Part shown: piece after piece, positions 18,299-60,380 of the stretch
Numbering within the stretch: position 1 is the stretch's first letter
How the letters are laid out: each line of letters begins with the position of its first letter
Source of the DNA: Amycolatopsis sp. DSM 110486
GTDB taxonomy: Bacteria; Actinomycetota; Actinomycetes; Mycobacteriales; Pseudonocardiaceae
DNA: 64,000 nt
Assembly: GCF_019468465.1 (NCBI RefSeq)
Contig: NZ_CP080519.1
Coordinates: forward strand, 4,971,001 to 5,035,000
Direction: 5' to 3'
The notes under the pieces: model-generated
What the model saw: only the letters and a program-made list of their open reading frames with translations
The model's database searches: none
What the model was told of the DNA's origin: nothing
Made by a program: the position numbers and the translations under genes

Positions 18299-18327
18299 TT
18301 GACCACTACCCCTTGTGACGCCATGAT
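18299..18327 (+). promoter_or_regulatory. Candidate promoter of the type IV secretion-like operon
   Basis: TTGACC at 18299-18304 and CATGAT at 18322-18327 are 17 bases apart, a reasonable housekeeping-sigma arrangement. Transcription would start near 18334, leaving a 5' leader of about 57 bases before the first ATG at 18391. Confidence 0.5.
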
Positions 18328-18390: not shown

Positions 18391-18657
18391 ATGACCACCA
18401 TGACCACGCTCGAGACGCTGGCTGCCGGCGAACTCGGCACCGGAAACGTCCGAAACTGGTTGCTCGACAACGTCGTCCCCCTGGTGTTGCTGGCCGTCGC
18501 GCTCCTGTTGCTCTGGCTCGGTGGCGGCAAGGGTGACAACGCCGGTGTCATGCGCAGGCTCGCCGGTGTCGTCATCGCGCTCGCCATCATCGGACTCGCG
18601 GTCAGTGGCGCCGGCGTCAACGTGGGCCAGTGGATCGCCGGCCTGTTCACGGGCTGA
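18391..18657 (+). CDS. VirB2-like two-TM pilin candidate
   Basis: An 88-residue protein: a short polar N-terminus (about 25 residues), a membrane helix (about 29-46, VVPLVLLAVALLLLWL), a Gly/Lys/Arg cytosolic loop (GGGKGDNAGVMRR) and a second helix (about 58-85). Size and two-helix hairpin topology match VirB2/TrbC-type pilins after processing, though no leader-peptidase site is evident. GGAG about 7 bases before the ATG gives a fair ribosome site. It is the first gene of an operon; the next start is 12 bases downstream. The VirB2 assignment rests on topology and operon position, not sequence identity. Confidence 0.6.
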   Translation: MTTMTTLETLAAGELGTGNVRNWLLDNVVPLVLLAVALLLLWLGGGKGDNAGVMRRLAGVVIALAIIGLAVSGAGVNVGQWIAGLFTG

Positions 18658-18669
18658 GGCGGAGCAGGC

Positions 18670-19158
18670 GTGCGCATCAGGACGGATGACGAGGTCTACC
18701 GGGTCGACGCCGTCTGGCTCGGCCCGCCGAAGGCGACTTTTCCCTGGAGAGCCCGCTACGTAGCGTGGCTCATCGGCATACCCATCTTCCTGGTCGTGCT
18801 CACCATCGAACGGTGGGCCGGCTGGAGCTTCGGATTCTTCTCCACGGCGTGGGCGTTCGTGGCCACGATCGTGATCACCCGGCTGATCACCGCCAAGATC
18901 AGCCACGAGCGCCCGCTGGGCGCGGTGATCGGGATGGCCGGCCGCGAGCTCAACACACCGCGTGAGAAGCCCGCGGGTACGGGCGGCGCCGTCAGCGCCA
19001 GCCGTATCCGCGTGCGGGCCGAGCGCCCGTTGCCGAAGCACAAGAGAAGGCGGCAGTACCGGCACCACGGCTACGGCCAGGGCACCGGGGTTTCGGCCGG
19101 AGCACAGGGAGCACCACGAGCGCGCCGGAGCCGCCCCGCGGCTCGGGCCGGGAGGTAG
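18670..19158 (+). CDS. PrgI/VirB3-like inner-membrane protein
   Basis: 162 residues. After an N-terminal cytosolic segment (VYRVDAVWLGPPKATFPWR), two closely spaced membrane helices follow (about 31-46 and 51-73), then a conserved-looking TAKISHERPLGAVIGMAGREL and a basic, low-complexity tail. The fold plan and position directly before a VirB4-like ATPase are those of PrgI/VirB3, which anchors VirB4 at the membrane. GTG 18670 is preceded by GGAG at 18661-18664. The stop is 3 bases from the next start. The basic tail (KHKRRRQYRHHGYGQ) is unusually long. Confidence 0.7.
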   Translation: MRIRTDDEVYRVDAVWLGPPKATFPWRARYVAWLIGIPIFLVVLTIERWAGWSFGFFSTAWAFVATIVITRLITAKISHERPLGAVIGMAGRELNTPREKPAGTGGAVSASRIRVRAERPLPKHKRRRQYRHHGYGQGTGVSAGAQGAPRARRSRPAARAGR

Positions 19159-19161
19159 TCG

Positions 19162-22134
19162 TTGTTCGGTCGCGGCGGAAGCCGAGGAAAGCGGGATCGA
19201 AGCGTGCCCACGGGCGCCTGGGAAACCCCGCAGCAGGTCCGGCAACCCTCGCCGAGGAACAACTCCTCGGCGGGCAAGAGGCTGCCCGGTGAGCAGGCCA
19301 TACCCGCGTACACGCCATCGATCGCGGCGCGCAGCATCGACGGGCACCTGCTGCGCACCGGGCACGAGGTGTACGCCTGGTACCGGCTCGCGCCCCAACG
19401 GTGGTCGTTCCGCTCCGACTCACAGCGCCGCGACCTGATCGCGGCCATCGCGGGCCAGTACGCGGAGCTGCAGGGCCGCTGGCTGCACCTGCGCGTGACC
19501 AACCGGCCGTACCCGATCCGCATGTGGGCCGAGGCCCACGTGCACAACGCCGTCGGCCGTCCCCAGGACGTGCCGGGTGCCCTTTCCTTCGACGACTACC
19601 TGATCGGCGAGCAGCAGCAGCTGATGGGCCGTTCGATGGCCGAAAAAGAGGTCTACCTCGGCGTCCAGGTGCAGACCCGCCGCATGGTCGACCGCGCCGT
19701 CGAACGCGCCGCCCCCGTGCTGCGCAAGATCCTGCCCGAGGCCGTCGACGCCGAGCTGGTGGCGCTCGACTCCGAGGTCGAGCACCTCGACCAGGTCATC
19801 GGCACCGCCGGGCTCGAAGGCCGTCCGGTGCACGCCGAGGAGATGTCCTGGCTGATGCACCGCTCGTGCTCGCTGGGCCTGCCCGCGCCGCGCAACATGC
19901 CGGCCGTGCCGGGCGCCGCGTGGGAGCCCGAGGACCTCGCCAGCTTCACCGACGCAGCCGACTTCCACGCCGACCCGTACGCGCCCACGGTCACCGTCCG
20001 TGGCCGCACGGGGTCCAACGCCGGCGTGTCGCGGCACCTTGCCGTGCTCACCGTCGGCCAGATGCACGGCCTGCAGATCCCCGAGGTCGACGACCCGTGG
20101 ATCCAGCACGCCGACCGCCTGCCCGCCGCCGTCGAGGTGTCCGCGCGCATCTACGTGCGCCGGCCCGAAGAGGTCGCGGGTGAGCTGCAGCGCCAGATGA
20201 ACAAGGTGCGTTCGCAGGTCAAGCACTACACCGACGAGCACGAGCTGGAGCCGCCGCAATCGCTTGCGCGCCAGGCCGGGCGCGTGCTGGAGATCGACGA
20301 CGAGATGACGTCGGGCTTCACCGCGCTGGCCACCCGCGTGCGCTCGTGGTGGCGTCTGGCCGTCTCCGGCCCGACGGAGCGCGACGCGCTGCGCCTGGCC
20401 CAGCAGCTGCTCGACCTGTACAAGCCGAAGGTCGCGATCGAGCACCCCGAGGCCCAGTACGCGATGGCGCGCGAGTTCATCCCGGGCGAGCCGCTGGCGT
20501 CGGCGGCGTACATGCGTCGCGGCTCGGTGGTGTGGACGGCGTCGTCCGTGCCCACGGCCACCGCGGAGGTCGGTGACCGGCGCGGCATCCTGCTCGGCGA
20601 GACGGTGACCGCGACCCGGCGGCCGGTGGCGTGGGACCCGTGGATGGCGCAGGAGATCCGCGACGGCTCGGGCCTCACAGCGATGGTGGCCGGCCTGGGT
20701 GGCGGCAAGTCGTTCCTCGGCGGCGGCATCGTCTACAAGACGCTGCGCGCCGGGGCGCACTGGACGATCCTCGACCCGTCGGGCCCGCTGGCGCGGCTGT
20801 GCGACCTGCCGGAGCTGCGGCCGTACGCGCGACCGATCAACCTGCTCAACGCACAGCCCGGCATCCTCAACCCGTACCGCGTGGTCGCTGATCCGCTGCT
20901 CGAGCACTTCATGGACGAGGACGACCCGGAACGCTCCTGGCGGCGCGAAAAGGCGCTCGCCGGCGCGACCCGGCGCCGTCTGGTGCTCGACGTGCTCACG
21001 GGCGTGCTGCCGTACGAGGTGTCGCGCATGGCGCAGACGCGGATCGTGCTGCTGCGCGCCGTCCGCGCCGTCGGCGGTCGTTTCGACGCCGACCCGGGCC
21101 AGGTCATCGACGCGCTGCGCCGCGATTCGAGCGAGCACCACGAGCACGCCGTCGTGGTCGCCGACTTCCTCGACGAGATGCGCGAACGCATGGCGCTGCT
21201 CATCCCGGAACGCGGCGCCGACCCGTACTCCGAGACGCGCGACGACCGCATGACGGTGCTGACCATGGCGGGCCTGACCCTGCCCAAGGACGGCGTGCCG
21301 CGCGAGTACTGGACGGACGCGGAGTCGCTCGGCGTCGAGATGCTGAACCTCGCGGCGTGGCTCACGCAGCGGTCGGTGTACGAGAAGCCGAAGGAACAGC
21401 GCAAGGGCGTCTGGATCGACGAGGCGTTCTTCCTCTCGGAGGTCCCGACCGGCCGCGTGCTGATGAACCGCTTCGCGCGCGACTCGCGAAAGTGGAACGT
21501 CCGCGTGCTGCTGTCCTCGCAGATCCCGGCCGACTTCCTGAAGATCCAGGGCTTCGTCGCCCTGCTCGACTCGGTCTTCGTCGGCCGCCTCGACGACGAC
21601 GACGCCCAGGCCGACGCCCTGCGCCTGCTCAAGGTGCCTGTCGGCGTCGGCTACGAACAGGTCGTCGCCGCGTTGGGCCGCCGCCCCGGCGCGCAACGCG
21701 GCACAGAACGCGACGTGGAACCCCGCCAGTTCATCTTCGGCGACGGCGCCGGCGGCGTGGAACGCATCCGCGTCGACTTCTCCGGCCCCCACCTCGACCA
21801 GCTGCGCTCGGTCATGGACACCACCCCGGGTTCCCCCGACGCGCGCACCAAGCCGGGCGCGGCCCTCGTGCGACCCCACGAGGAAGCGCCCGCCCCCTAC
21901 GTCCCCACCCCACCGGAGGACGACGAGCTGGAACACGACTTCGAGCTCCAGGCCGAGCTCGAAGTCGGCCTTACCGACGAGCAGCTCCTCGGCTCGCCGG
22001 ACCCGCTCGCGTCCGAGACCGGCGAGGTGGAGGGTGCTGTGCACAACGGAAACGGACAACCTGCCAACGGACACTCCCCCGACCGGCACGCCCGGGCCGG
22101 CGGCAAGGGTGGTACCGGCAGGGATGCCGCGTGA
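19162..22134 (+). CDS. virB4-like: VirB4-like secretion ATPase
   Basis: A 990-residue protein, the likely motor of the apparatus. Residues 1-60 are a disordered tail and about 65-480 the N-terminal VirB4-type domain that docks to the membrane complex. The ATPase domain has Walker A GLGGGKS at 511-517, Walker B GVWIDEA with Asp753-Glu754, and a following RFARDSRKWNVRVLLSSQIPADFL, typical of VirB4/TraC motif III. About 880-990 is an acidic, disordered tail. Length exceeds usual VirB4 (about 800) because of both tails. The start is TTG 19162 with GGGAGG six bases upstream. It has no coupling-protein (VirD4) features. The stop overlaps the next GTG. Confidence 0.85.
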   Translation: MFGRGGSRGKRDRSVPTGAWETPQQVRQPSPRNNSSAGKRLPGEQAIPAYTPSIAARSIDGHLLRTGHEVYAWYRLAPQRWSFRSDSQRRDLIAAIAGQYAELQGRWLHLRVTNRPYPIRMWAEAHVHNAVGRPQDVPGALSFDDYLIGEQQQLMGRSMAEKEVYLGVQVQTRRMVDRAVERAAPVLRKILPEAVDAELVALDSEVEHLDQVIGTAGLEGRPVHAEEMSWLMHRSCSLGLPAPRNMPAVPGAAWEPEDLASFTDAADFHADPYAPTVTVRGRTGSNAGVSRHLAVLTVGQMHGLQIPEVDDPWIQHADRLPAAVEVSARIYVRRPEEVAGELQRQMNKVRSQVKHYTDEHELEPPQSLARQAGRVLEIDDEMTSGFTALATRVRSWWRLAVSGPTERDALRLAQQLLDLYKPKVAIEHPEAQYAMAREFIPGEPLASAAYMRRGSVVWTASSVPTATAEVGDRRGILLGETVTATRRPVAWDPWMAQEIRDGSGLTAMVAGLGGGKSFLGGGIVYKTLRAGAHWTILDPSGPLARLCDLPELRPYARPINLLNAQPGILNPYRVVADPLLEHFMDEDDPERSWRREKALAGATRRRLVLDVLTGVLPYEVSRMAQTRIVLLRAVRAVGGRFDADPGQVIDALRRDSSEHHEHAVVVADFLDEMRERMALLIPERGADPYSETRDDRMTVLTMAGLTLPKDGVPREYWTDAESLGVEMLNLAAWLTQRSVYEKPKEQRKGVWIDEAFFLSEVPTGRVLMNRFARDSRKWNVRVLLSSQIPADFLKIQGFVALLDSVFVGRLDDDDAQADALRLLKVPVGVGYEQVVAALGRRPGAQRGTERDVEPRQFIFGDGAGGVERIRVDFSGPHLDQLRSVMDTTPGSPDARTKPGAALVRPHEEAPAPYVPTPPEDDELEHDFELQAELEVGLTDEQLLGSPDPLASETGEVEGAVHNGNGQPANGHSPDRHARAGGKGGTGRDAA

Positions 22135-24203
22135 ACACAGTCTGGACGCTGGCGTTCGTCCTGTCGTTCGCCGCTGGCTGGCACGCGCTGAAGCGGCGCA
22201 TCAAGGAAGGTCCGAAACCCGGCCGGCGGCAGCCGAGCCGGCGGGCGGCCATGCTCGCCGTGATCACGATCCTCGGCTTGCAGACGGTGCTCATGGCGCC
22301 GTCGGCCAACGCCGCGGCCTGCGGTGAGTCACCGAACCCCGAGCGGCCCGGCTCGGGCATGGTCGGCGCGATCGACCCGCCGGAAGGCCACGGCGAGCCC
22401 GGCAGCGCGTACATCGACTACAGCTACGCGGGCATGGTCTGGAACACCTACCAGACCAACTGCACGGCGCTGTCCGCCATCGCCTCGCCCAGTTCCACAA
22501 TCGACACGTGGGCGGGCAACCAGCTGTTCAACGTCGGCAAGAACATCGTCGGCGCCACCAACTCGCTGCACTACACCGTGCTCGAGGGCGGGCTGCTGAA
22601 CCCGATCTACAGCGCGGTGAAATCGGGCGCGGAGAAGGTCTACAACAACATCTACGCGCAGCTGTTCGGGCTCGTCGCGCTGATCCTGTCGATCATGCTG
22701 TTCCGCCAGATCTGGCGGGGTGACCTCGCGGCGGTGAGCAAACGGGCGCTGTACGCGCTCGCAGGGGTGTGGCTCGCGGCGTCGTCGCTGGCGATGCTGC
22801 GGTACTTCGACCCGATCGACAAAGCGATCGTCCAGACCACCACGAACATCCAGGCGGGCTTCGTCGACGAGAGCTCCGACCGGATCGTGCGCGACATCCT
22901 GCCGACGAACCTGCACACCCAGATCGTCTACGACAACTGGCTGCGCGGGGAGTTCGGTTCGCCGACCGCGCCGCAGGCCGACCAGTTCGGCAAGCCGCTG
23001 CTCGACGCGCAGGCGTTCACCCGCGACCAGCTCGTGAACGGCGACGACGGCAAACAAAACGTCGTCGACGCCAAAAAAGCCGCCTTCAAAGACATCTCCG
23101 GCAAGCTCGGCCCTGCCACCGGCTACTTCACCGGCGAGTCCGGCGGCCGCACCGGCGCCGGGTTCCTGGCGCTGGGCCAGAGCATCGTCTACTCGCTGTT
23201 CCAGTTGCTGGCCAAGGCTTCCGTGCTCCTCGCGCAGGTCTTGATCCGCCTGTTCACGCTCACCGCGCCGCTCATCGGCCTCGTCGCGCTGCTGCACCCG
23301 GACATCCTGCGCCGCGTGCTGAAGGTGGCCGGCGGGATCGCGTTCAACCTGGTCGTGCTGTCGGTGCTCGCGGGTGTGCACGCGCTGCTGCTGCAGGCGA
23401 TCTTCGACGCCGGCAGCTCGCTCAACCTGCTCACGCAGATGGTGCTCGGCGGCCTGATCACGGTGCTGCTGTTCCTGGTCGGACGGCCCGTGCGGCGGCT
23501 GTGGCAGATGGTCGAGATGTCCGTCAACGTCGTGGGTGCCGCGGTGCCTTCGCCCAACGGCGGCATTTTCTCCCGCTTCCGCAAGAAGGCCGGGCCTTCG
23601 CCGCAGGACGAGTTCTGGCAGAACGTGCGCGACACCGACGACGTGGTCGACGGCGAAGCGCGCGGTCCGATGGGCGCGACCGTCGGCGGCGGGCGCTACC
23701 GGCCGGAGGCCGCGGTCTTCGCCAGCGCCCAGCGGCTCGACAACGGTTCCCGCTCCGCGCGTCCGGCCGCCGCTTGGTCGGGTGCGCCGTGGCCCGGCGC
23801 CGTCGGGTCGGCCGGCGAGCGCGCCGCGCTGACGTCGGGCGGCGGTGGAGCGCCGGTGTTCTCGCAGTACAACCCGGTCACGGGCGAGCCGGGCGACTAC
23901 GTCGGCGGCCGCCGCGTGCCGATGCAGGAAAGCCGGCGCGTCGACACGTCGCCGGTGGCCGACCGGCGCTGGAGCGACGAGCAGGAGCCGGTCGTCGTCC
24001 CGTCGCGGATGAGCTCGTCGGACCGCGGCTACACCTCGCCGGAGTCGATTCCGGAGCAGGCAGGCGTCTACACGCCGCCGGGCATCCGCGCGCAGCCTCG
24101 CCGGGTCGACCCGGAAGTGGTCGCGGGCAAGCCCGTTTTCGTGCTGTACCGGCCTTCCCGTGGCATCGAGGTCCGCGACACCGACCAGCTCATGGGGCGG
24201 TGA
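22131..24203 (+). CDS. VirB6/TrbL-like polytopic membrane protein
   Basis: 690 residues. Two N-terminal hydrophobic stretches (about 3-18 and 37-58, the second ending in ANAAACG, signal-peptide-like) are followed by an extracellular-looking segment. About 6 membrane helices lie between about 180 and 465 (AQLFGLVALILSIMLF, LYALAGVWLAASSLAML, LIRLFTLTAPLIGLVALL, FNLVVLSVLAGVHALLL, LGGLITVLLFLVG). A 220-residue Ser/Arg/Pro-rich cytosolic tail ends the protein. VirB6/TrbL proteins form the inner-membrane channel of type IV systems. GTG 22131 overlaps the VirB4-like stop in a GTGA. Identity is by topology, size and operon position. Confidence 0.75.
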   Translation: MNTVWTLAFVLSFAAGWHALKRRIKEGPKPGRRQPSRRAAMLAVITILGLQTVLMAPSANAAACGESPNPERPGSGMVGAIDPPEGHGEPGSAYIDYSYAGMVWNTYQTNCTALSAIASPSSTIDTWAGNQLFNVGKNIVGATNSLHYTVLEGGLLNPIYSAVKSGAEKVYNNIYAQLFGLVALILSIMLFRQIWRGDLAAVSKRALYALAGVWLAASSLAMLRYFDPIDKAIVQTTTNIQAGFVDESSDRIVRDILPTNLHTQIVYDNWLRGEFGSPTAPQADQFGKPLLDAQAFTRDQLVNGDDGKQNVVDAKKAAFKDISGKLGPATGYFTGESGGRTGAGFLALGQSIVYSLFQLLAKASVLLAQVLIRLFTLTAPLIGLVALLHPDILRRVLKVAGGIAFNLVVLSVLAGVHALLLQAIFDAGSSLNLLTQMVLGGLITVLLFLVGRPVRRLWQMVEMSVNVVGAAVPSPNGGIFSRFRKKAGPSPQDEFWQNVRDTDDVVDGEARGPMGATVGGGRYRPEAAVFASAQRLDNGSRSARPAAAWSGAPWPGAVGSAGERAALTSGGGGAPVFSQYNPVTGEPGDYVGGRRVPMQESRRVDTSPVADRRWSDEQEPVVVPSRMSSSDRGYTSPESIPEQAGVYTPPGIRAQPRRVDPEVVAGKPVFVLYRPSRGIEVRDTDQLMGR

Positions 24204-24206
24204 CGC

Positions 24207-24815
24207 GTGCCGATCCGGACCAACCGCGGCCGGACCGCGGTCTACCGCCGCCTGTGGGGCTATCCGCTCCGCTCGCCGCGCCACCTTGTGGGCACGATCG
24301 TGTTCCTGGCGATCGTGGTCACCGCGCTCGGCATCGTGCTGCCGAAGGTGATGGGCAAGCCGGCCACCGCGACGCCGGGCGCGCCGGGCAGCACATCGGT
24401 CGCCACGACCACGTCGCAGCCGCCGGGCATCGCGGCACCCGTGCCGACCACCGCGACGCTGCCGACGCGGCTGTCGAGCCCGCTGCTCACCCCGACGTCC
24501 GCGGCACCGAACCCCGAGGCCGTCAACGTCGCCAAGCAGTGGGCCACGGCCTGGGTCAACCACCCCGCGGGCATCACCAACGCCGACTGGCTCAACGGCA
24601 TGCGCGCCCTGACCACCGACGAGTTCCTGCCCCAGATGTCCACTGTGGACCCCGCGAACATCCCGGCCACGCGCGTGACCGGCGACGCGACGGTCCAGTC
24701 CTCCTACACCAGCTCCGTCGTAGTCATTGTCCCCACTGACGGTCCGAAGCTGTCCATCACCGTGGTCAACACGGGCGCGGGGTGGCGGGTTTCGGACTAC
24801 GACCAGGCGAGCTGA
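24207..24815 (+). CDS. VirB8/TcpC-like bitopic protein
   Basis: 202 residues: a short basic cytosolic start (YRRLWGYPLRSPRHLV), one membrane helix (about 29-48), a Thr/Pro/Ala-rich linker (about 52-100) and an extracytosolic domain (about 105-200) ending in VVNTGAGWRVSDYDQ. The end pattern, with a late Trp-Arg-Val, is common in NTF2-like domains such as VirB8 and TcpC. VirB8-like proteins bridge the inner-membrane channel to outer parts. GTG 24207 lies 3 bases after the previous stop. Only the C-terminal half of the VirB8 fold is recognisable, so the assignment is probable rather than certain. Confidence 0.65.
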   Translation: MPIRTNRGRTAVYRRLWGYPLRSPRHLVGTIVFLAIVVTALGIVLPKVMGKPATATPGAPGSTSVATTTSQPPGIAAPVPTTATLPTRLSSPLLTPTSAAPNPEAVNVAKQWATAWVNHPAGITNADWLNGMRALTTDEFLPQMSTVDPANIPATRVTGDATVQSSYTSSVVVIVPTDGPKLSITVVNTGAGWRVSDYDQAS

Positions 24816-24819
24816 CTCG

Positions 24820-25818
24820 GTGAAGATCGCTATCCTCGTCGCGGTGCTGGTCGCCGCCGTCTTCGCGACGGTGCTCACCGCGAGCACCGTGACGAAAGTC
24901 GTGGTGGACCAGCAGGAAGCCGCCGCCGGCGGGATCCTCAACACCTCGTGCGACGCGGCGATCGGTCCCACGCAGCCCGGCCAGCCGGAGACCGGTGCGG
25001 GGCAGGCGCAGAACCTCGACGACGAGCAGCGCGGCATCGTCTCGCTCATCATCTCCATCGGCAAGCAGCGCAGCCTCGCCCCGCGCGCCTGGCAGGTGGC
25101 GATCCAGGCCGGCATGACCGAGTCGGGCCTGCGCAACCTCAACCACGGCGACCGAGACTCCCTGGGCATCTTCCAGATGCGCCCGTCGATGAACTGGGGC
25201 AGCGTCGCCCAGGTCACTGACCCGAACTACGCGATCAACAAGTTCTACGACGTGCTCCTCGCCGTGCCCGACTGGCAGAACGAACGCCCGGGCGACGCCG
25301 CGCAAGCCGTGGAACGCTCCGGTTTCCCCGACCGCTACCACAAGTGGGAAGCCATGGCTTCCGTGCTGATCGAGAACCTGGGCCAGGTCGTCGACGCGTC
25401 CGGCTGCGGCCAGGGCCTCGGCGCCGCGCTCCCGCCCAGCCAGGCGGCGGCGCAGGCCATCAAGTTCGCACTGGGGGAGCAGGGCAAGCCCTACGTGTGG
25501 GGCGCGACCGGTCCCGGCGCGTACGACTGTTCCGGTCTCATGCTGCGCGCCTACGAGTCGGCCGGCGTGATCCTGCCGCGCGTCTCCCAGGACCAGTACA
25601 AGGCCGGCGCGATGCTCCCGGTGCGCGAGGCGCAGCCCGGTGACCTGATCTTCCTCGCGACGGACCCCGCCGACCCGTCCACCATCCACCACGTGGCGAT
25701 GTACCTGGGCGACGGCAAGATCGTCGAGGCCCAGCAGACAGGCGTGCCCGTGCACGTGCGCCCCTTCTCCTTCGACGAGGCCGAAGTGGTGCCGCAGGCG
25801 GTGCGCCCCGGCGTCTAG
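24820..25818 (+). CDS. VirB1-like cell-wall hydrolase (lysozyme-like + NlpC/P60)
   Basis: 332 residues with an N-terminal membrane anchor (about 3-22). Next comes a lysozyme-like domain (about 62-185) with the candidate catalytic Glu in AIQAGMTESGLRNL and a SLGIFQMRPS loop. A C-terminal NlpC/P60 peptidase (about 212-330) has catalytic Cys237 (YDCSGL) and His290/His291 (IHHVAMYLG). Such two-domain hydrolases (CwlT/Orf14/TcpG class) open peptidoglycan for Gram-positive type IV machines. GTG 24820 is 4 bases from the previous stop. Its place at the end of the core operon strongly supports a transenvelope apparatus. Confidence 0.88.
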   Translation: MKIAILVAVLVAAVFATVLTASTVTKVVVDQQEAAAGGILNTSCDAAIGPTQPGQPETGAGQAQNLDDEQRGIVSLIISIGKQRSLAPRAWQVAIQAGMTESGLRNLNHGDRDSLGIFQMRPSMNWGSVAQVTDPNYAINKFYDVLLAVPDWQNERPGDAAQAVERSGFPDRYHKWEAMASVLIENLGQVVDASGCGQGLGAALPPSQAAAQAIKFALGEQGKPYVWGATGPGAYDCSGLMLRAYESAGVILPRVSQDQYKAGAMLPVREAQPGDLIFLATDPADPSTIHHVAMYLGDGKIVEAQQTGVPVHVRPFSFDEAEVVPQAVRPGV

Positions 25819-29556: not shown

Positions 29557-29754
29557 ATGGCTGACGACCCCAACCCGGACCCCGGCTGGTACTACAACAC
29601 CCGCACCCACGAGGTGGAACACCTGGAACGCAGCCGGAGCATCGACCTCCTCGGGCCCTACCCCGACGAGGCCACCGCCCGCCGCGCCCTCGACATCGCC
29701 CGCGAGCGCAACCGACAGGCCGACGCCGCCGACCGCGAATGGGACGGCGACTGA
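29557..29754 (+). CDS. Small SPOR-like protein
   Basis: A 65-residue protein with WYYNTRTHEVEHLERSRSID followed by LGPYPDEATARRALDIARERN. This matches the short actinobacterial proteins annotated as SPOR-domain-like, where the aromatic start is followed by the GPYxxxxxARRAL motif. SPOR domains bind denuded glycan strands, but this protein has no signal peptide, so the true ligand is unclear. It follows the Pro/Gln-rich gene by 24 bases on the same strand and may be co-transcribed. A GC-rich stem-loop follows. Confidence 0.7.
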   Translation: MADDPNPDPGWYYNTRTHEVEHLERSRSIDLLGPYPDEATARRALDIARERNRQADAADREWDGD

Positions 29755-51624: not shown

Positions 51625-54600
51625 ATGGGAACCCCAGCGAGCGCGCGCAGGCGCATCCCCGCCTGGAAGGCCAGGGCGGGCGGCCTCGTCGCCACTGTCG
51701 TGCAGCTCGCCGCCGTCTTCTCGGTGGTGCTGCTGCTCGCCGGCGGGACCCACGGGCACCTGCTCAACGGCATCGACATGGCCTTCTCGGCCCTCAGCGT
51801 GCCGACGAGCGCGAGCCTCGTGATCGTGCTGCTGCTCGTCGTCCTCGGCGCGGCCCTGCGGCGGCGCAAGAAGGCCGCGCTCTACACGTTGCTGCTCTTC
51901 CAGGTCGGCGGGCTGCTCATCACGCTCGCGTTCCAGGCGGTGTTGCTGTGGGCGCCCGACCTGCTCGCGCTCGGCCCGCGGCAGATCCGCCACATCCCGA
52001 TGCAGGTCGGCTTCCTCGCGATCGCCGACGTGCTGTCCGTGCTGCTGATCTCGTTCCTGCTCGTGCTGCGCCCGGCGTTTCCCGCGCGGCTCGCGCCCGG
52101 CGCCTGGCGCGACGGGCTGGCGGTGCTCTTCGGCGGCCTGCTCGTGGTGGTCGCGCTCGGCTGGGCGCTCACCGAGGCGTTCCCCGGCACGCTCGGCGAC
52201 TCGTGGGAACGGCTGGTCTGGGTGGTCAACCACGCCACCGGTGAGAACCTGCAGCTGCGCAAGATCGGCGTCGGCGAGGGCCCGGCGTGGATCGACGTGG
52301 TGCTCGACCTCGGCGCGACCTTCGTGGCCACCGGCGCGCTGTACACGCTCTTCCGCGGTGTTCGGCACCGTCGTCAGCGCACCGACGACGAAGAGTTGGC
52401 GCTGCGCCGCCTGCTCGCGGAGTTCGGCGATGACGACTCCCTCGGCTACTTCGCCACGCGCCGGGACAAGAGCGTGGTCTTCTCGCCCAACGGCCGCGCG
52501 GCCGTGACCTACCGCGTGCTCGGCGGCACCAGCGTCGCCAGCGCCGACCCGATCGGCGACCCGGACGCGTGGCCCGACGCCGTGCGGGCGTGGCTCGACG
52601 AAACCCGTTCGTACGGCTGGATTCCCGGCGTCCTCGGCGCCAGCGAGCGCGGCGCGAAGGTCTACGCGGCCGCGGGCCTGCGCGCGCTGGAGATCGGCGA
52701 CGAAGCGGTGCTCGACGTCCGCGAGTTCTCCCTGACCGGGCCCGAGCGCAAGTCCGTGCGCCAGGCCGTGAAGCGGATCGAACGCGCGGGTTACACCGCG
52801 CGCGTGCGCCGCCACGGCGAAATCTCCGACGACGAGATGCAGGGCCTGCTCGGGCGGGCGCAGCAGTGGCGCGGCGCGGAGTCCGAACGCGGCTTCTCGA
52901 TGGCGCTGGGCCGCCTCGGCGACGCCAGCGATGCCCGCAGTGTGATGGTCGAGGCCTACGACGGCGAGGGCGAGCTGCGCGGCCTGCTGTCCTTCGTGCC
53001 GTGGGGCCGGCGGGGCCTCTCGCTCGATCTCATGCGCCGTGACCGCGGGGCGGAAAACGGCCTCAACGAGTTCATGATCGCCGAGGTCGTCGCGGCCGCG
53101 CAGCACCTCGGCGCGCAGCGGATCTCCCTCAACTTCGCCATGTTCCGCGCGGTCTTCGCCGAGGGGGAGCGCATCGGCGCCGGTCCCGTGCTGCGCCTGT
53201 GGCGTTCGGTGCTGGGCCTGGCGTCGCGGTTCTTCCAGCTGGAGTCGCTGTACCGCTCCAACGCGAAGTACGGCCCGGGCTGGGAACCGCGCTTCCTCTG
53301 CTACTCCTCGGCCCGCCGCTTGCCGCGCGTCGGCATCGTCGCCGGCGCGCTGGAGGGGTTCGTGCCCACGGGCCGCTCGCGCGTGCTGCGGCTCGAAACG
53401 GTGAGCGACGAGTTCGTGGCCAAGGTCCGGCGCATCGAGGACGGCGCCGCCCGCGTCGCCCCGAAGGCCGCGCGCCGTCCGGAGCAGGTGCGCGTGCGCG
53501 TCGCGAAGCTGGACAAACTGCGCGATCTCGGCGTGGATCCGTACCCCGTCGGCTTCAGGCGCGAAGACCTGCTGGGCGAGGTCGTGGGCAAGTTCGCCGA
53601 GCTGCCGGCGGATTCGCGCACCGGGCACCGCGTGCGCGTGGCCGGCCGGGTGCTCGCGCTGCGGACGCTCGGCGGCCTGTGTTTCGCGCGCATCAAGGAC
53701 TTTTCGGGCGAATTGCAGCTGATGCTCGACGCCGCGGTGCTCGACCTCTCGGGCTGGCGCACGGGTGTGGACCTCGGTGACCACGTCGGCGTGAGCGGAG
53801 AGGTGGTCACCTCGCGCCGAGGCGAGCTGTCCGTGCTCGTCGACGAGTGGACGGTCACCGCGAAGTGCCTGCACCCGTTGCCGGACAAACGAAAGGGCCT
53901 CACCGACCCCGAGACGCGCGTGCGCCAGCGCTACCTCGACCTGGCCGTGAACCCGGAGTCGGCGCACCTGCTGCGGCTGCGGTCCACGGTGGTCCGCGCC
54001 GTGCGCGAGCGGCTGCACCAGGGTGACTACCTCGAGGTCGAGACGCCGATGCTGCAGACCGTCCACGGTGGAGCCAACGCGCGGCCGTTCGTCACGCACA
54101 TCAACGCCTACGACATGCGGATGTACCTGCGCATCGCGCCGGAGCTCTACCTCAAGCGCCTGTGCGTCGCCGGCGTCGAGCGCGTCTTCGAGCTCAACCG
54201 CAACTTCCGCAACGAAGGCGTCGACGCGACGCACAACCCCGAGTTCACGATGCTCGAGGCGTACCAGGCCTACGCCGACTACAACTCGATGCGCGACCTC
54301 ACCCGCGAGCTGGTGCAGCACGCGGCCGAAGCGGCCTTCGGCGCGCAGATCGTGCGCCGCCACGACGCCGACGGCCACGTGACCGAGTACGACATTTCCG
54401 GCGACTGGCCGGTGATCCCCGTGCACGAGGCCGTTTCGGCGGCGCTCGGCGAGGAGATCGACTCGGGTACGTCGGTGGCCACGCTCCGGCGGCTCTGCAC
54501 CGCGGCCGGTGTGCCGGTGGGGGAGGACGCCGGGCACGGTGACCTGGTGCTGAAGGCCCACGAGCACCTCGTCGAGGGCTCGACGGTGATGCCGACCTTC

Positions 54601-54948
54601 TACACCGACTACCCCACGGACGTTTCGCCGCTGACCCGCCGGCACCGCCGCGACCCGCTGCTGGCCGAGCGCTGGGACCTCATCGCGTTCGGCTCGGAGG
54701 TCGGCACCGCGTACACCGAGCTCACGGACCCGATCGAACAGCGCCGCCGGCTGGAAGCCCAGTCGCTGCGCGCCGCGAGCGGCGACGTCGAGGCGATGGA
54801 GCTCGACGAAGACTTCCTGCTCGCGCTCGAACACGGCATGCCGCCGACGGGCGGGCTCGGCCTCGGCGTCGACCGGCTGCTGATGATGCTCAGCGGCGCG
54901 TCGATCCGGCAGACGGTGCTGTTCCCGTTCGTGCGCCCGCACGCCTGA
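51625..54948 (+). CDS. lysX: Lysylphosphatidylglycerol synthase fused to lysyl-tRNA synthetase
   Basis: 1,107 residues. The N-terminal part (about 15-250) has 6 membrane helices. The MprF-like LPG synthase domain (about 265-590) includes VTYRVLGGTSVASADPIGDP and ISLNFAMFRAVFAEGERIG. The rest is a lysyl-tRNA synthetase: OB-fold at about 640-760, class II motif 2 (RVFELNRNFRNEGVDATHNPEFTMLE) and motif 3 (GLGLGVDRLLMML). The enzyme charges tRNA-Lys and transfers lysine to phosphatidylglycerol, lowering membrane charge and raising resistance to cationic peptides, as in M. tuberculosis. ATG 51625 follows AAGGG at good spacing. Confidence 0.96.
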   Translation: MGTPASARRRIPAWKARAGGLVATVVQLAAVFSVVLLLAGGTHGHLLNGIDMAFSALSVPTSASLVIVLLLVVLGAALRRRKKAALYTLLLFQVGGLLITLAFQAVLLWAPDLLALGPRQIRHIPMQVGFLAIADVLSVLLISFLLVLRPAFPARLAPGAWRDGLAVLFGGLLVVVALGWALTEAFPGTLGDSWERLVWVVNHATGENLQLRKIGVGEGPAWIDVVLDLGATFVATGALYTLFRGVRHRRQRTDDEELALRRLLAEFGDDDSLGYFATRRDKSVVFSPNGRAAVTYRVLGGTSVASADPIGDPDAWPDAVRAWLDETRSYGWIPGVLGASERGAKVYAAAGLRALEIGDEAVLDVREFSLTGPERKSVRQAVKRIERAGYTARVRRHGEISDDEMQGLLGRAQQWRGAESERGFSMALGRLGDASDARSVMVEAYDGEGELRGLLSFVPWGRRGLSLDLMRRDRGAENGLNEFMIAEVVAAAQHLGAQRISLNFAMFRAVFAEGERIGAGPVLRLWRSVLGLASRFFQLESLYRSNAKYGPGWEPRFLCYSSARRLPRVGIVAGALEGFVPTGRSRVLRLETVSDEFVAKVRRIEDGAARVAPKAARRPEQVRVRVAKLDKLRDLGVDPYPVGFRREDLLGEVVGKFAELPADSRTGHRVRVAGRVLALRTLGGLCFARIKDFSGELQLMLDAAVLDLSGWRTGVDLGDHVGVSGEVVTSRRGELSVLVDEWTVTAKCLHPLPDKRKGLTDPETRVRQRYLDLAVNPESAHLLRLRSTVVRAVRERLHQGDYLEVETPMLQTVHGGANARPFVTHINAYDMRMYLRIAPELYLKRLCVAGVERVFELNRNFRNEGVDATHNPEFTMLEAYQAYADYNSMRDLTRELVQHAAEAAFGAQIVRRHDADGHVTEYDISGDWPVIPVHEAVSAALGEEIDSGTSVATLRRLCTAAGVPVGEDAGHGDLVLKAHEHLVEGSTVMPTFYTDYPTDVSPLTRRHRRDPLLAERWDLIAFGSEVGTAYTELTDPIEQRRRLEAQSLRAASGDVEAMELDEDFLLALEHGMPPTGGLGLGVDRLLMMLSGASIRQTVLFPFVRPHA

Positions 54949-58040: not shown

Positions 58041-60380
58041 TCAGGACTTCTTCATCCGCATCATGCTGCGCACCTTCTTCACCGTCTGCTCGAAGTCCGA
58101 GTCGAACGGGTTGTCGTGCACCAGGTAGGTCCACGTCGTGTTCGCCCGCCGCACGCCGGCGTCGGCGAGATCGATGCCGTCGTCGGTGATCTCGGCTTCC
58201 TCGAGCGTCTTCGACGCGCGCGCCGCCGACTCCGCGATGATCTTGTGGAACTCCGGGATCGCCGCGCGGTGGAACTCGTCGAGCGGCGTCTCGCGGGCCA
58301 GCGCCCGCAGGTGGATGCTCTCGCGCACGTCGGTCAGGTACGCGAGGTGGTCGGACCAGAGCTGGTCGAGGTGGAACAGCACGACCTCGCGGGAGAGCTG
58401 TTCGAGCCGCTCGGTGTCGTCGAGCTTCTCCTTCACCTCGGCGAACTTTTCCGGCTGAGCCTTCTCCAGCTCCTCGGACGCGAACGCCGTGTGCAGCACC
58501 TTGTCGCGGTGTTCCAGCAGCTCGGTGCGCTGCCGCTCGATCAGCCGCGTGTAGCGCCAGGTGTTGCGGTGGATCTCCAGGTCGACGCCCTCGGCCACGC
58601 GCTGGGCGTGGTTGATCTGCCGCACCGCCGCCGGGTCGGTGATCTCCCCGGTCTCGGTGTCGGCGTCGATGCCCTCGGGGATGTCGGGCGCGTTGGAGAG
58701 CACCAGGTCGTCGTTGAGGCTCGCGAAGAAGATCGCGCTGCCCGGGTCACCCTGCCGGCCGGACCGGCCGCGCAGCTGGCCGTCGAGGCGGCTCGACGGG
58801 TACCGCGCGGTGCCGATCACGTGCAGGCCGCCCAGCTCGGCGACCTCCTCGCGGCTCGCGCCCTCGGTGCCGCCGAGGCGGATGTCGGTACCGCGGCCGG
58901 CCATCTGCGTGGACACGGTGACCGCGCCCTTCTTGCCGGCCTCGGCGATGATGGCGGCCTCTTCGGCGTCGTTGCGCGCGTTGAGCACCACGCACGGCAG
59001 GTCGACCTTCGCGAGCTTGTCGGCCAGCTCCTCGGACTCGGCCACGTCCTGGGTGCCCACGAGGATGGGCCGCCCGGTCTCGTGCACCTTCCGGATCTCC
59101 TCCTCGATCGCGCGCAGCTTCTGCGACGGCGATCCGAAGATCCGGTCCGGCTGGTCCTCGCGGACGTTCGGGGTGTTCGGCGGGATCACCGCGACCTCGA
59201 GGCTGTAGAACTCGCGCAGCTGCTCGGCCACGGCCACGGCCGTCCCGGTCATGCCCGCCACCGACGGGTAGCGCGCGAGCAGCGCCTGCACCGTGATCGA
59301 GTCGAGGATCTCGCCGCGGTCGGTGGCCGCCACCTGCTCCTTCGCCTCGACGGCGGCCTGCAGGCCGTCCGGCCAGCGCTGCAGCTCGGCGACGCGGCCG
59401 CGGGCGGCGTTGATGAGCTGCACCTTGCCGTCGCGCACGAGGTAGTCGACGTCGCGGGTGAGCAGCGCGTGGGCGTGCAGCGCGACGTTCACCGCGGCCA
59501 GTCGGTCGGAGCCCGAGTCGCCGTAGAGGTCGATGCCGCCGAGCGACTTCTCGACCACGGACGCGCCGGCGGTGGTGAGCCACGCGTTGCGGCCGTCGGT
59601 GTCGGTCTCGTAGTGCAGGCCGAGACGCAGCCGGCGCACGACCGTGGCGACCTCTTCGTCGGCGTCGTTGTGGTCGATCGAGCCGGCCATCACGAGCGGC
59701 ACGCGGGCCTCGTCGACCAGCACGGAGTCGGCCTCGTCGACGATCGCCACCTCGGGTGCGCCCTGCACCAGATCGTCGACGGCCGTCACGAGCCGGTCGC
59801 GCAGCACGTCGAAGCCGATCTCGGCCACGGCGCCGTAGGTGACCTGCTTGCCGTAGGCGTCCTTGCGCTCGTCGCGGCTATGCGCGGGCTCGACCCAGCC
59901 GACGGTCACCGAGAGCAGGTCGTAGACGGGTTTCATCCACTCGGCGTCGCGTCGGGCGAGGTAGTCGTTGACGGTGACGACGTGCACGCGGTTGCCGCGC
60001 AGGGCGTACCCCGCGGCCGCCAGCGCTCCGGCGAGCGTCTTGCCCTCACCGGTCTCCATCTGCACCACGTGCCCGGTGAGCAGACCCATCGTGCCGAGGA
60101 CCTGCACGTCGAACGCGCGCTCGCCGAGCGCGCGCCGCGCGGCCTCACGGCCGAGGGCGCAGGTCTCCACCAGCTGGTCGTCGTTGAACACCTTCGCGCC
60201 ACCGAGGTCCTCACGCAGCTTTTCGGCGCGTTCGGTGAGCTCGGCGTCCGAGAGCTTCTCGAGGTCGGGTTCGAGCTTCGCGACTGCGGGCAGCAGCGCT
60301 TCGTAGCGGGTCAGCTCGACGCTGCCCGGCCGCTGGATGATCCGGCGGAGCCGCTTGCCCACCCGGCTGATCAGTGCCAC
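58041..60380 (-). CDS. secA2: Accessory Sec translocase ATPase SecA2
   Basis: 779 residues, close to mycobacterial SecA2 (about 800) and shorter than SecA1. Walker A is METGEGKT (108-115), Walker B DEADSVLVDEAR, and the second helicase-like domain has MAGRGTDIRLGG and RSGRQGDPGSAIFF. The C-terminal zinc-binding linker of SecA1 is absent; the end is the basic MMRMKKS. SecA2 exports a limited protein set, some important for host interaction in pathogens. GTG 60380 is the assumed start. A strong terminator follows. It is divergent from the CaeA-like gene. Confidence 0.93.
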   Translation of the reverse strand: MALISRVGKRLRRIIQRPGSVELTRYEALLPAVAKLEPDLEKLSDAELTERAEKLREDLGGAKVFNDDQLVETCALGREAARRALGERAFDVQVLGTMGLLTGHVVQMETGEGKTLAGALAAAGYALRGNRVHVVTVNDYLARRDAEWMKPVYDLLSVTVGWVEPAHSRDERKDAYGKQVTYGAVAEIGFDVLRDRLVTAVDDLVQGAPEVAIVDEADSVLVDEARVPLVMAGSIDHNDADEEVATVVRRLRLGLHYETDTDGRNAWLTTAGASVVEKSLGGIDLYGDSGSDRLAAVNVALHAHALLTRDVDYLVRDGKVQLINAARGRVAELQRWPDGLQAAVEAKEQVAATDRGEILDSITVQALLARYPSVAGMTGTAVAVAEQLREFYSLEVAVIPPNTPNVREDQPDRIFGSPSQKLRAIEEEIRKVHETGRPILVGTQDVAESEELADKLAKVDLPCVVLNARNDAEEAAIIAEAGKKGAVTVSTQMAGRGTDIRLGGTEGASREEVAELGGLHVIGTARYPSSRLDGQLRGRSGRQGDPGSAIFFASLNDDLVLSNAPDIPEGIDADTETGEITDPAAVRQINHAQRVAEGVDLEIHRNTWRYTRLIERQRTELLEHRDKVLHTAFASEELEKAQPEKFAEVKEKLDDTERLEQLSREVVLFHLDQLWSDHLAYLTDVRESIHLRALARETPLDEFHRAAIPEFHKIIAESAARASKTLEEAEITDDGIDLADAGVRRANTTWTYLVHDNPFDSDFEQTVKKVRSMMRMKKS

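Follow-up and report, generated by a model that had tools for sequence, protein, structure and literature searches.

A probable conjugation-type channel encoded by a core chromosomal operon of the Pseudonocardiaceae

Described systems and the layout of the operon

In the Tcp systems of Tn916 and pCW3 (MPF_FA), which belong to the type IV secretion systems (T4SS), two small genes are followed by the gene for VirB4 and then by that for VirB6. We describe here an operon that can be compared with them on the chromosome of Amycolatopsis sp. DSM 110486, within a stretch of 64,000 nucleotides (NZ_CP080519.1, positions 4,971,001 to 5,035,000) which is called the window and to which positions refer. 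Six genes on the + strand (18391-25818) encode a monoderm type IV channel, and two further genes, up to position 29754, go along with them.

In Tn916/pCW3-type systems the two small VirB3-like proteins preceding VirB4 are TcpD and TcpE (PMC12857230). The Amycolatopsis operon is like these systems in that TcpF is the best NCBIfam model for its VirB4 and its hydrolase resembles the NlpC/P60 enzyme of the Tn916 type. However, it has no relaxase, TcpA/VirD4 or integrase, and there is little sequence likeness beyond VirB4 and the hydrolase. CmdABCDEF (SCO4126-4131) of Streptomyces coelicolor is, like our operon, a chromosomal set of co-directional genes for a VirB4-related ATPase and membrane proteins; cmd mutants have defects in aerial hyphae, in the septation of spores and in chromosome segregation, and transfer of plasmid pQC542 is unaltered in them (PMC2782261). 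A chromosomal VirB4-related operon can thus be important for the development of hyphae, which transposon data on actinorhodin overproduction back (PMC6585502). Relaxase-poor, VirB4-based chromosomal T4SS of monoderm kinship, most clusters of which lack a relaxase, are described from Patescibacteria (PMC12102498); this is another phylum, and the likeness to our operon is one of description. Finally, chromosomal T4SS loci short of markers were labelled defective integrative conjugative elements (DICE) in a Streptomyces survey, where one such locus has a mid-chromosomal place in each of the 11 strains of a population (PMC9513070). Among the papers listed by our literature search, with subscription papers mostly outside it, none dealt with the operon in Pseudonocardiaceae.

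Our analysis indicates that the locus is a genuine T4SS-type channel, core and chromosomal. Intergenic gaps are 12 bases or less, or genes overlap, and 45 bases lie ahead of VirB4 if its start is at 19204. Number, place, strand and spacing of the six genes agree with a preliminary description made from the bare sequence. The features are given below, with protein lengths in amino acids (aa) and transmembrane segments abbreviated as TM.

18299..18327, + strand: candidate sigma-70-like promoter, TTGACC-17-CATGAT, 63 bases upstream of gene 1
18391..18657, + strand: gene 1, product of 88 aa with two TM segments, placed like VirB2 or TcpD (TM estimate, plasmid profile match, 26 of 26 loci)
18670..19158, + strand: gene 2, 162 aa, a soluble N-terminus followed by two TM segments; position and topology alone make it VirB3/TcpE-like
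19162..22134, + strand: gene 3, VirB4 ATPase, 990 aa from TTG 19162 or 976 aa from GTG 19204
22131..24203, + strand: gene 4, polytopic VirB6-like membrane protein of 690 aa with an estimated six TM
24207..24815, + strand: gene 5, VirB8-like bitopic protein, 202 aa, one TM (TM estimate, plasmid profile match)
24820..25818, + strand: gene 6, VirB1-like wall hydrolase, 332 aa, with N-terminal hydrophobic segment, muramidase-like domain and NlpC/P60
25945..29532, + strand: accessory protein rich in proline, 1195 aa, of which about 125 aa form a conserved N-terminal domain (24 of 26 loci)
29557..29754, + strand: accessory 65-aa protein, final gene of the putative transcription unit (22 of 26 loci)

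VirB4 matches Pfam AAA_10 (2.1e-19) and, far under that model's cut-off, TcpF (4.7e-18), and a profile of 13 VirB4 sequences finds VirB4 4ag5 as its top match in the PDB (4.1e-10). Both Walker motifs are intact: K502 and D739-E740 in the 976-aa numbering, corresponding to Walker A 511-517 and Walker B 753-754 in the 990-aa numbering, where the preliminary description had placed them, are the same in all 13 aligned homologues. The hydrolase, likewise correctly recognized before as a lysozyme and NlpC/P60 enzyme, matches PF00877 (2.2e-23), and its residues 74-181 are muramidase-like (PDB 8b2e, 7.4e-9); further PDB matches are 7cfl, 4hpe and 4fdy. The profile searches proposed at that time name VirB4 and NlpC/P60, but leave genes 2 and 5 unnamed (Pfam, NCBIfam) and match genes 4 (NF046089, 1.4e-4) and 1 (NF046089, 0.0093, its sole family match) far below the cut-off. 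The best PDB sequence match of the VirB8-like protein, for which an NTF2-like fold would be expected, is an unrelated protein (E 0.33). Genes 1, 2, 4 and 5 are assigned by position, membrane topology and homology to plasmid counterparts. By position gene 1 may be a VirB2 pilin or a TcpD-like protein. With respect to genes 1 and 2, the earlier terms "VirB2" and "full minimal set" claim more than the evidence gives. Gene 2 was missed by gene prediction in the window; tblastn recovers it in the loci of 26 of 26 relatives.

The promoter candidate was found once, versus 0.3 expected in shuffled sequences, and its block is mostly kept in 5 distinct genomes of the genus. Motifs of developmental regulators were sought upstream of gene 1 and gave nothing convincing. 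The first 172 aa of the proline-rich protein have 414 relatives. This protein has no match in Pfam or NCBIfam, its profile is without a PDB match, and in 18 plasmid and outgroup loci the best E value is 0.13; the length of its tail varies from near none (relatives of about 134-157 aa) up to about 1000 aa here. The 65-aa protein belongs to no family in Pfam or NCBIfam.

As a side observation, VirB4 of five of 120 family genomes (L081-L085; G028, G066, G069, G037, G112) carries an in-frame insert of about 400 aa in Walker A, between GGGK and S, the ends of which are intein-like; a relative of this length (P0104) carries a LAGLIDADG domain (PF14528).

Residence on the chromosome

The window covers 4.97-5.03 Mb of a 10.96-Mb contig. 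VirB4 was found in all 120 sampled Pseudonocardiaceae genomes (own included; up to 7 candidates scored per genome) and thus in 46 of 46 genera, at one place each, and the family VirB4s are 60-93% identical where unsplit. In the own genome the operon VirB4 is the sole PF12846 protein. A tblastn search for the eight genes in the 26 loci that were fetched recovered genes 1-5 in 26 and the hydrolase in 25, with order and strand identical in 26 of 26, which answers the earlier call for a synteny check across the family. Most loci also have flanking genes in common, for example upstream those for NIF3, an RNase H-phosphatase and a zinc-ribbon protein, or downstream that for an RNB-domain protein; three loci of a deeper clade (L078-L080) sit elsewhere.

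The operon genes are under purifying selection. Compared with one genome of the genus, dN/dS is 0.07 for gene 1, 0.16 for gene 2, 0.10 for VirB4, 0.29 for VirB6, 0.39 for VirB8 and 0.28 for the hydrolase, with 0.22 and 0.18 for two neighbour genes. In-frame stops lie within the VirB4 match in a few of the 120 genomes; among 55 re-read loci they occur in 2, both in the variable C-terminal tail.

A Pfam scan of 42 other window genes (seven gene calls, 6, 8, 9, 18, 21, 55 and 56, were outside it) gave no relaxase, coupling protein, integrase or transposase, as the preliminary description had stated for relaxase, VirD4 and integrase. With regard to an integrative conjugative element (ICE), there is no integrase among the 42 scanned genes and presence is not patchy; att sites were not searched. 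Because VirB4 is present in 120 of 120 genomes, the loci are collinear in 26 of 26 and selection is purifying, the operon is not a mobile element. The earlier view of a resident chromosomal apparatus that is no ordinary conjugative element is thereby upheld, and a decayed ICE of the DICE type is a very improbable explanation. The lack of a linked integrase, relaxase or coupling protein would suit such decay, but presence throughout the family, conserved site and order, purifying selection and the position of the only two stops among the 55 re-read loci speak against it.

Elsewhere the window encodes a 779-aa SecA-family ATPase (58041-60380, - strand) and a fusion of lysyl-tRNA synthetase with a phosphatidylglycerol lysyltransferase domain (51700-54948, + strand).

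Kinship with linear plasmids and other actinobacterial loci

The window VirB4 matches 99 plasmid records, all with at most 60% identity. We opened eight plasmids among 40 listed of these records: Streptomyces sp. 891-h, pRVR2 and pSM17C, Nonomuraea unnamed1, Pseudonocardia p1, Gordonia pSMJS1.2, Rhodococcus ruber plas2 and R. qingshengii unnamed1. All eight are recorded as linear and carry the same block with small variations, in the order two small genes, VirB4, VirB6-size gene, VirB8-position gene and wall hydrolase. In contrast to the operon, three small genes precede VirB4 in Nonomuraea, the hydrolase is a DD-metalloendopeptidase in both Rhodococcus plasmids instead of a muramidase with NlpC/P60, and it is split in Gordonia; the proline-rich and 65-aa genes also distinguish the chromosomal operon from the plasmid block. 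Between the family and a set of three plasmids, profile matches are 97.7% for gene 1, 99.7% for gene 2, 100% for VirB6 and 98.9% for VirB8, and 12 mismatched controls reach at most 1.6%. The other five plasmids give 98.6-99.4% for gene 2, 99.8-100% for VirB6, at least 92.8% for VirB8 in four and at least 92.1% for gene 1 in three.

A gene for a coupling ATPase lies within about 2 kb of the block in seven of the eight plasmids, whereas none lies beside the chromosomal operon. Of these seven ATPases, six are named FtsK/SpoIIIE and form one family and one is named conjugative DNA transfer; that of SM17 is only weakly similar. Near the block of Pseudonocardia p1 no such gene was found. In the fetched stretches of the eight plasmids no relaxase is annotated. 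Seven of the eight records are typed non-mobilizable, while R. qingshengii is typed MOBP, elsewhere on the plasmid. Over all 99 records, the typing is non-mobilizable for 62 and mobilizable for 37, which counts against a general relaxase-free rule. Since 8/8 plasmids have this block and seven of them are typed as free of a relaxase, protein export does not follow from the lack of one. The earlier conclusion from the missing relaxase, an apparatus that exports proteins or builds a surface structure, is not supported, and the evidence does not favour protein export over DNA transfer.

The phylogeny of VirB4 was calculated from 36 rows with IQ-TREE (LG+C20). The twelve Pseudonocardiaceae rows form one clade (100/100), which is sister to the plasmid VirB4s of Pseudonocardia, Gordonia and Rhodococcus (97/95); the Streptomyces and Nonomuraea plasmid rows come next, with 100/100 for all together. 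Outside (91/86) are two chromosomal rows of a family labelled f3, and the chromosomal rows of a second family, f18, and of Streptomyces are far off; by inference f3 may be Micromonosporaceae and f18 Streptosporangiaceae. A joint clade of Pseudonocardiaceae and f3 was rejected (p 2e-5). By tree and clade tests, the chromosomal copies are therefore not one lineage, and the Pseudonocardiaceae copy was fixed once. A clade test on eight plasmids without L088 (p 1e-38) was discarded; L088 is a probable plasmid contig.

In the class, the window VirB4 has matches in at least 27 of 246 genomes at 1e-10 (3 candidates scored each) and the f18 VirB4 in at least 40 of 246 at 1e-5 (4 candidates scored each), with 21 f18 genomes having a matching VirB4 among the matches listed. 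Because genomes without a match are mostly unlisted, no family-wide fraction can be given outside Pseudonocardiaceae. The profile matches to f3 are 98.1% for gene 2, 100% for VirB6 and 98.5% for VirB8. Those to f18 are 99.7% for VirB6, 88.1% for VirB8 and 0.1% for its TcpE domain versus gene 2, and the Streptomyces chromosomal counterparts give 96.7% for VirB6 and 6.2% for VirB8.

In f18 the gene ahead of VirB4 starts with a TcpE domain and encodes 770-1352 aa (L090:13329-17387, L095:13065-16154, L097:4615-6927); Pfam gives the domain for L090 alone (8.9e-26), where CbiA/ParA also matches weakly close to the end of the gene product. On Streptomyces chromosomes there is another VirB4 locus (L151, L156-L179; 24 named Streptomyces loci, from which the family f20 is taken as Streptomycetaceae), the VirB4 of which is distant from that of the window. 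It consists of a long proline-rich gene, a small gene, a 160-aa gene, VirB4, a lipoprotein-like gene and a VirB6-like gene, with VirB8-like and hydrolase-like genes being divergent. We considered whether L151, the VirB4 of which is related to that of the window, is cmd; the published cmdB primer sites are absent there, and identity with cmd was not adopted. A pattern from one cmdB primer had no match in three genomes of the Streptomyces group; since the two printed strands of the primer disagree, the pattern itself is unsure. From the domain positions in the paper, CmdB is perhaps a shorter ATPase of the approximately 490-aa kind seen in L188.

Possible cargo and alternative explanations

On balance we think it probable that the operon encodes a conjugation-type channel of the linear-plasmid kind, which was fixed on the chromosome in an ancestor of the Pseudonocardiaceae and is kept as a core host machine with its substrate provided in trans. 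This reading draws on gene content, order, conservation, selection and plasmid homology, and on the fact that neither a coupling ATPase nor a relaxase or integrase is linked. The muramidase/NlpC protein would open the wall, the VirB8-like, VirB6-like and small two-TM proteins would build the membrane channel, and VirB4 would drive it. Proteins with genes at other places would bring the substrate. As cargo, DNA or nucleoprotein is the most likely; during normal life of the mycelium it would pass the membranes or cross-walls of the hyphae.

Several observations weigh against this reading. A single clade of all plasmid rows including L088 was rejected at just p 0.018, so that the nesting is moderate; the tested groups were defined once the tree was known, and for several plasmid rows the tree program gives a long-branch warning. 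By parsimony two state changes suffice, which fits a move from plasmid to chromosome or the reverse. The profile match of VirB8 on one plasmid (L185) is weak with 56%, that of gene 1 is 29% and 0.3% on L182/L184, and the Streptomyces counterparts of genes 1, 2 and 5 gave no profile match. No universal coupling protein was found in the family genomes: plasmid-type FtsK was detected in 0 of 60, in a search without positive control, and VirD4 (PF02534) in 22 of 60, never near the operon. The last point speaks for the preliminary description, which had named linkage of relaxase and coupling-protein genes in relatives as a sign of a mobile element: none were linked, and VirD4 lies at other places. 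In an f3 operon an FtsK/SpoIIIE gene follows two or three called genes past the hydrolase, and homologues of it are present in 47 of 60 family genomes within a conserved cassette of their own (86-aa gene and FtsK in 14 of 14 loci, a second gene of about 82 aa called in 13 of 14). As a coupling protein acting in trans it was rejected, because it has its own cassette, looks soluble, is distant from the plasmid FtsKs and is missing in 13 of 60 genomes. In the own genome this cassette lies at about 3.19 Mb of contig C1 (L107:4391-8037), with the 86-aa gene, the gene of about 82 aa, a 913-aa FtsK/SpoIIIE-domain ATPase and a gene of about 120 aa.

All 37 VirD4 places were fetched in stretches of up to 20 kb and compared with reference proteins. 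Eighteen loci in 11 of 60 genomes hold a TrwC-type relaxase and VirD4 together, and in the stretch read (shorter than 20 kb at contig ends for L196, L200 and L206) none has a gene resembling the resident VirB4 or VirB6 or an ATPase of about 490 aa. Identities of the TrwC-type relaxases are 28 to 79% overall and at least 49% for the eighteen loci, with the relaxase of L195 in two pieces. Seven of the 18 loci also show an integrase-like gene; for L189 all three of relaxase, VirD4 and integrase were confirmed by Pfam, and for L190 the integrase. In fourteen loci VirD4 stands beside the approximately 490-aa ATPase of another T4SS type, which is present in 16 of 60 family genomes, and five loci fit neither group (L197, L204, L208, L215 and L219, the last without gene calls). 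In eight of the eleven genomes with relaxase and VirD4 (G002, G020, G028, G033, G037, G039, G042, G049) this ATPase is lacking and the resident VirB4 is the only one found. Because they have relaxase and VirD4 without a channel gene, these elements seem to need a channel from elsewhere. The resident channel is the sole candidate found, which is a correlation within the two types searched, the resident VirB4 and the approximately 490-aa ATPase; the elements may also be inactive. The own genome has a single VirD4, 3.4 Mb from the operon, without a TrwC-type relaxase within 20 kb. Three genes lie together at this locus (C1, about 8.39 Mb, L187:7528-19998): the VirD4-like gene, one for an L188-type ATPase of about 500 aa, and one for an RHS-repeat protein of 1698 aa that has an SLT domain. 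The locus is perhaps a T4SS remnant with toxin-like cargo.

That integrative mobilizable elements depend on the T4SS of another conjugative element is an established idea (PMC9513070), and the integrated relaxase and VirD4 elements could also use the channel described here. An extension of this, which we put forward tentatively and regard as rather unlikely, is that the channel would be a family-wide, host-owned conjugation gate used by various such elements, and that other mycelial families would have fixed comparable channels separately.

A dedicated protein exporter, or an envelope or septum machine for hyphal development with a role like that of CmdABCDEF and without DNA cargo, is possible, although less probable than a channel for DNA or nucleoprotein. 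It would account for the lack of linked DNA-processing or coupling genes among the scanned window genes and give a place to the two conserved accessory genes of unassigned role. The cmd mutants, with their developmental defects and unaltered pQC542 transfer (PMC2782261), offer a precedent, but searches via the published primers gave no evidence of homology to cmd. Moreover, no effector gene is linked to the operon, and the nearest relatives found are plasmid-borne and stand beside coupling-type ATPases. We consider it improbable that the operon encodes a VirB4-powered machine for DNA uptake. ComB of Helicobacter pylori is a DNA importer with VirB4/VirB6-like parts and without a coupling protein, and Ced of Sulfolobales, which is likewise free of a coupling protein, is described as using such parts. 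However, none of the 42 neighbours scanned is a competence gene, and the wall hydrolase and the plasmid kinship suit outward transfer better.

If the gate were indeed owned by the host, the mating apparatus would belong to the host and not to the element. If the channel helps the relaxase and VirD4 elements, the movement of elements without a channel of their own would be explained, and the host genome would be a determinant of gene flow. This concerns a family of antibiotic producers, in which the channel proteins are called just "ATP-binding" or "hypothetical" among the named records listed. The presence of a VirB4 channel in every sampled genome of the family suggests that conjugation machinery became core cell biology in mycelial actinobacteria.

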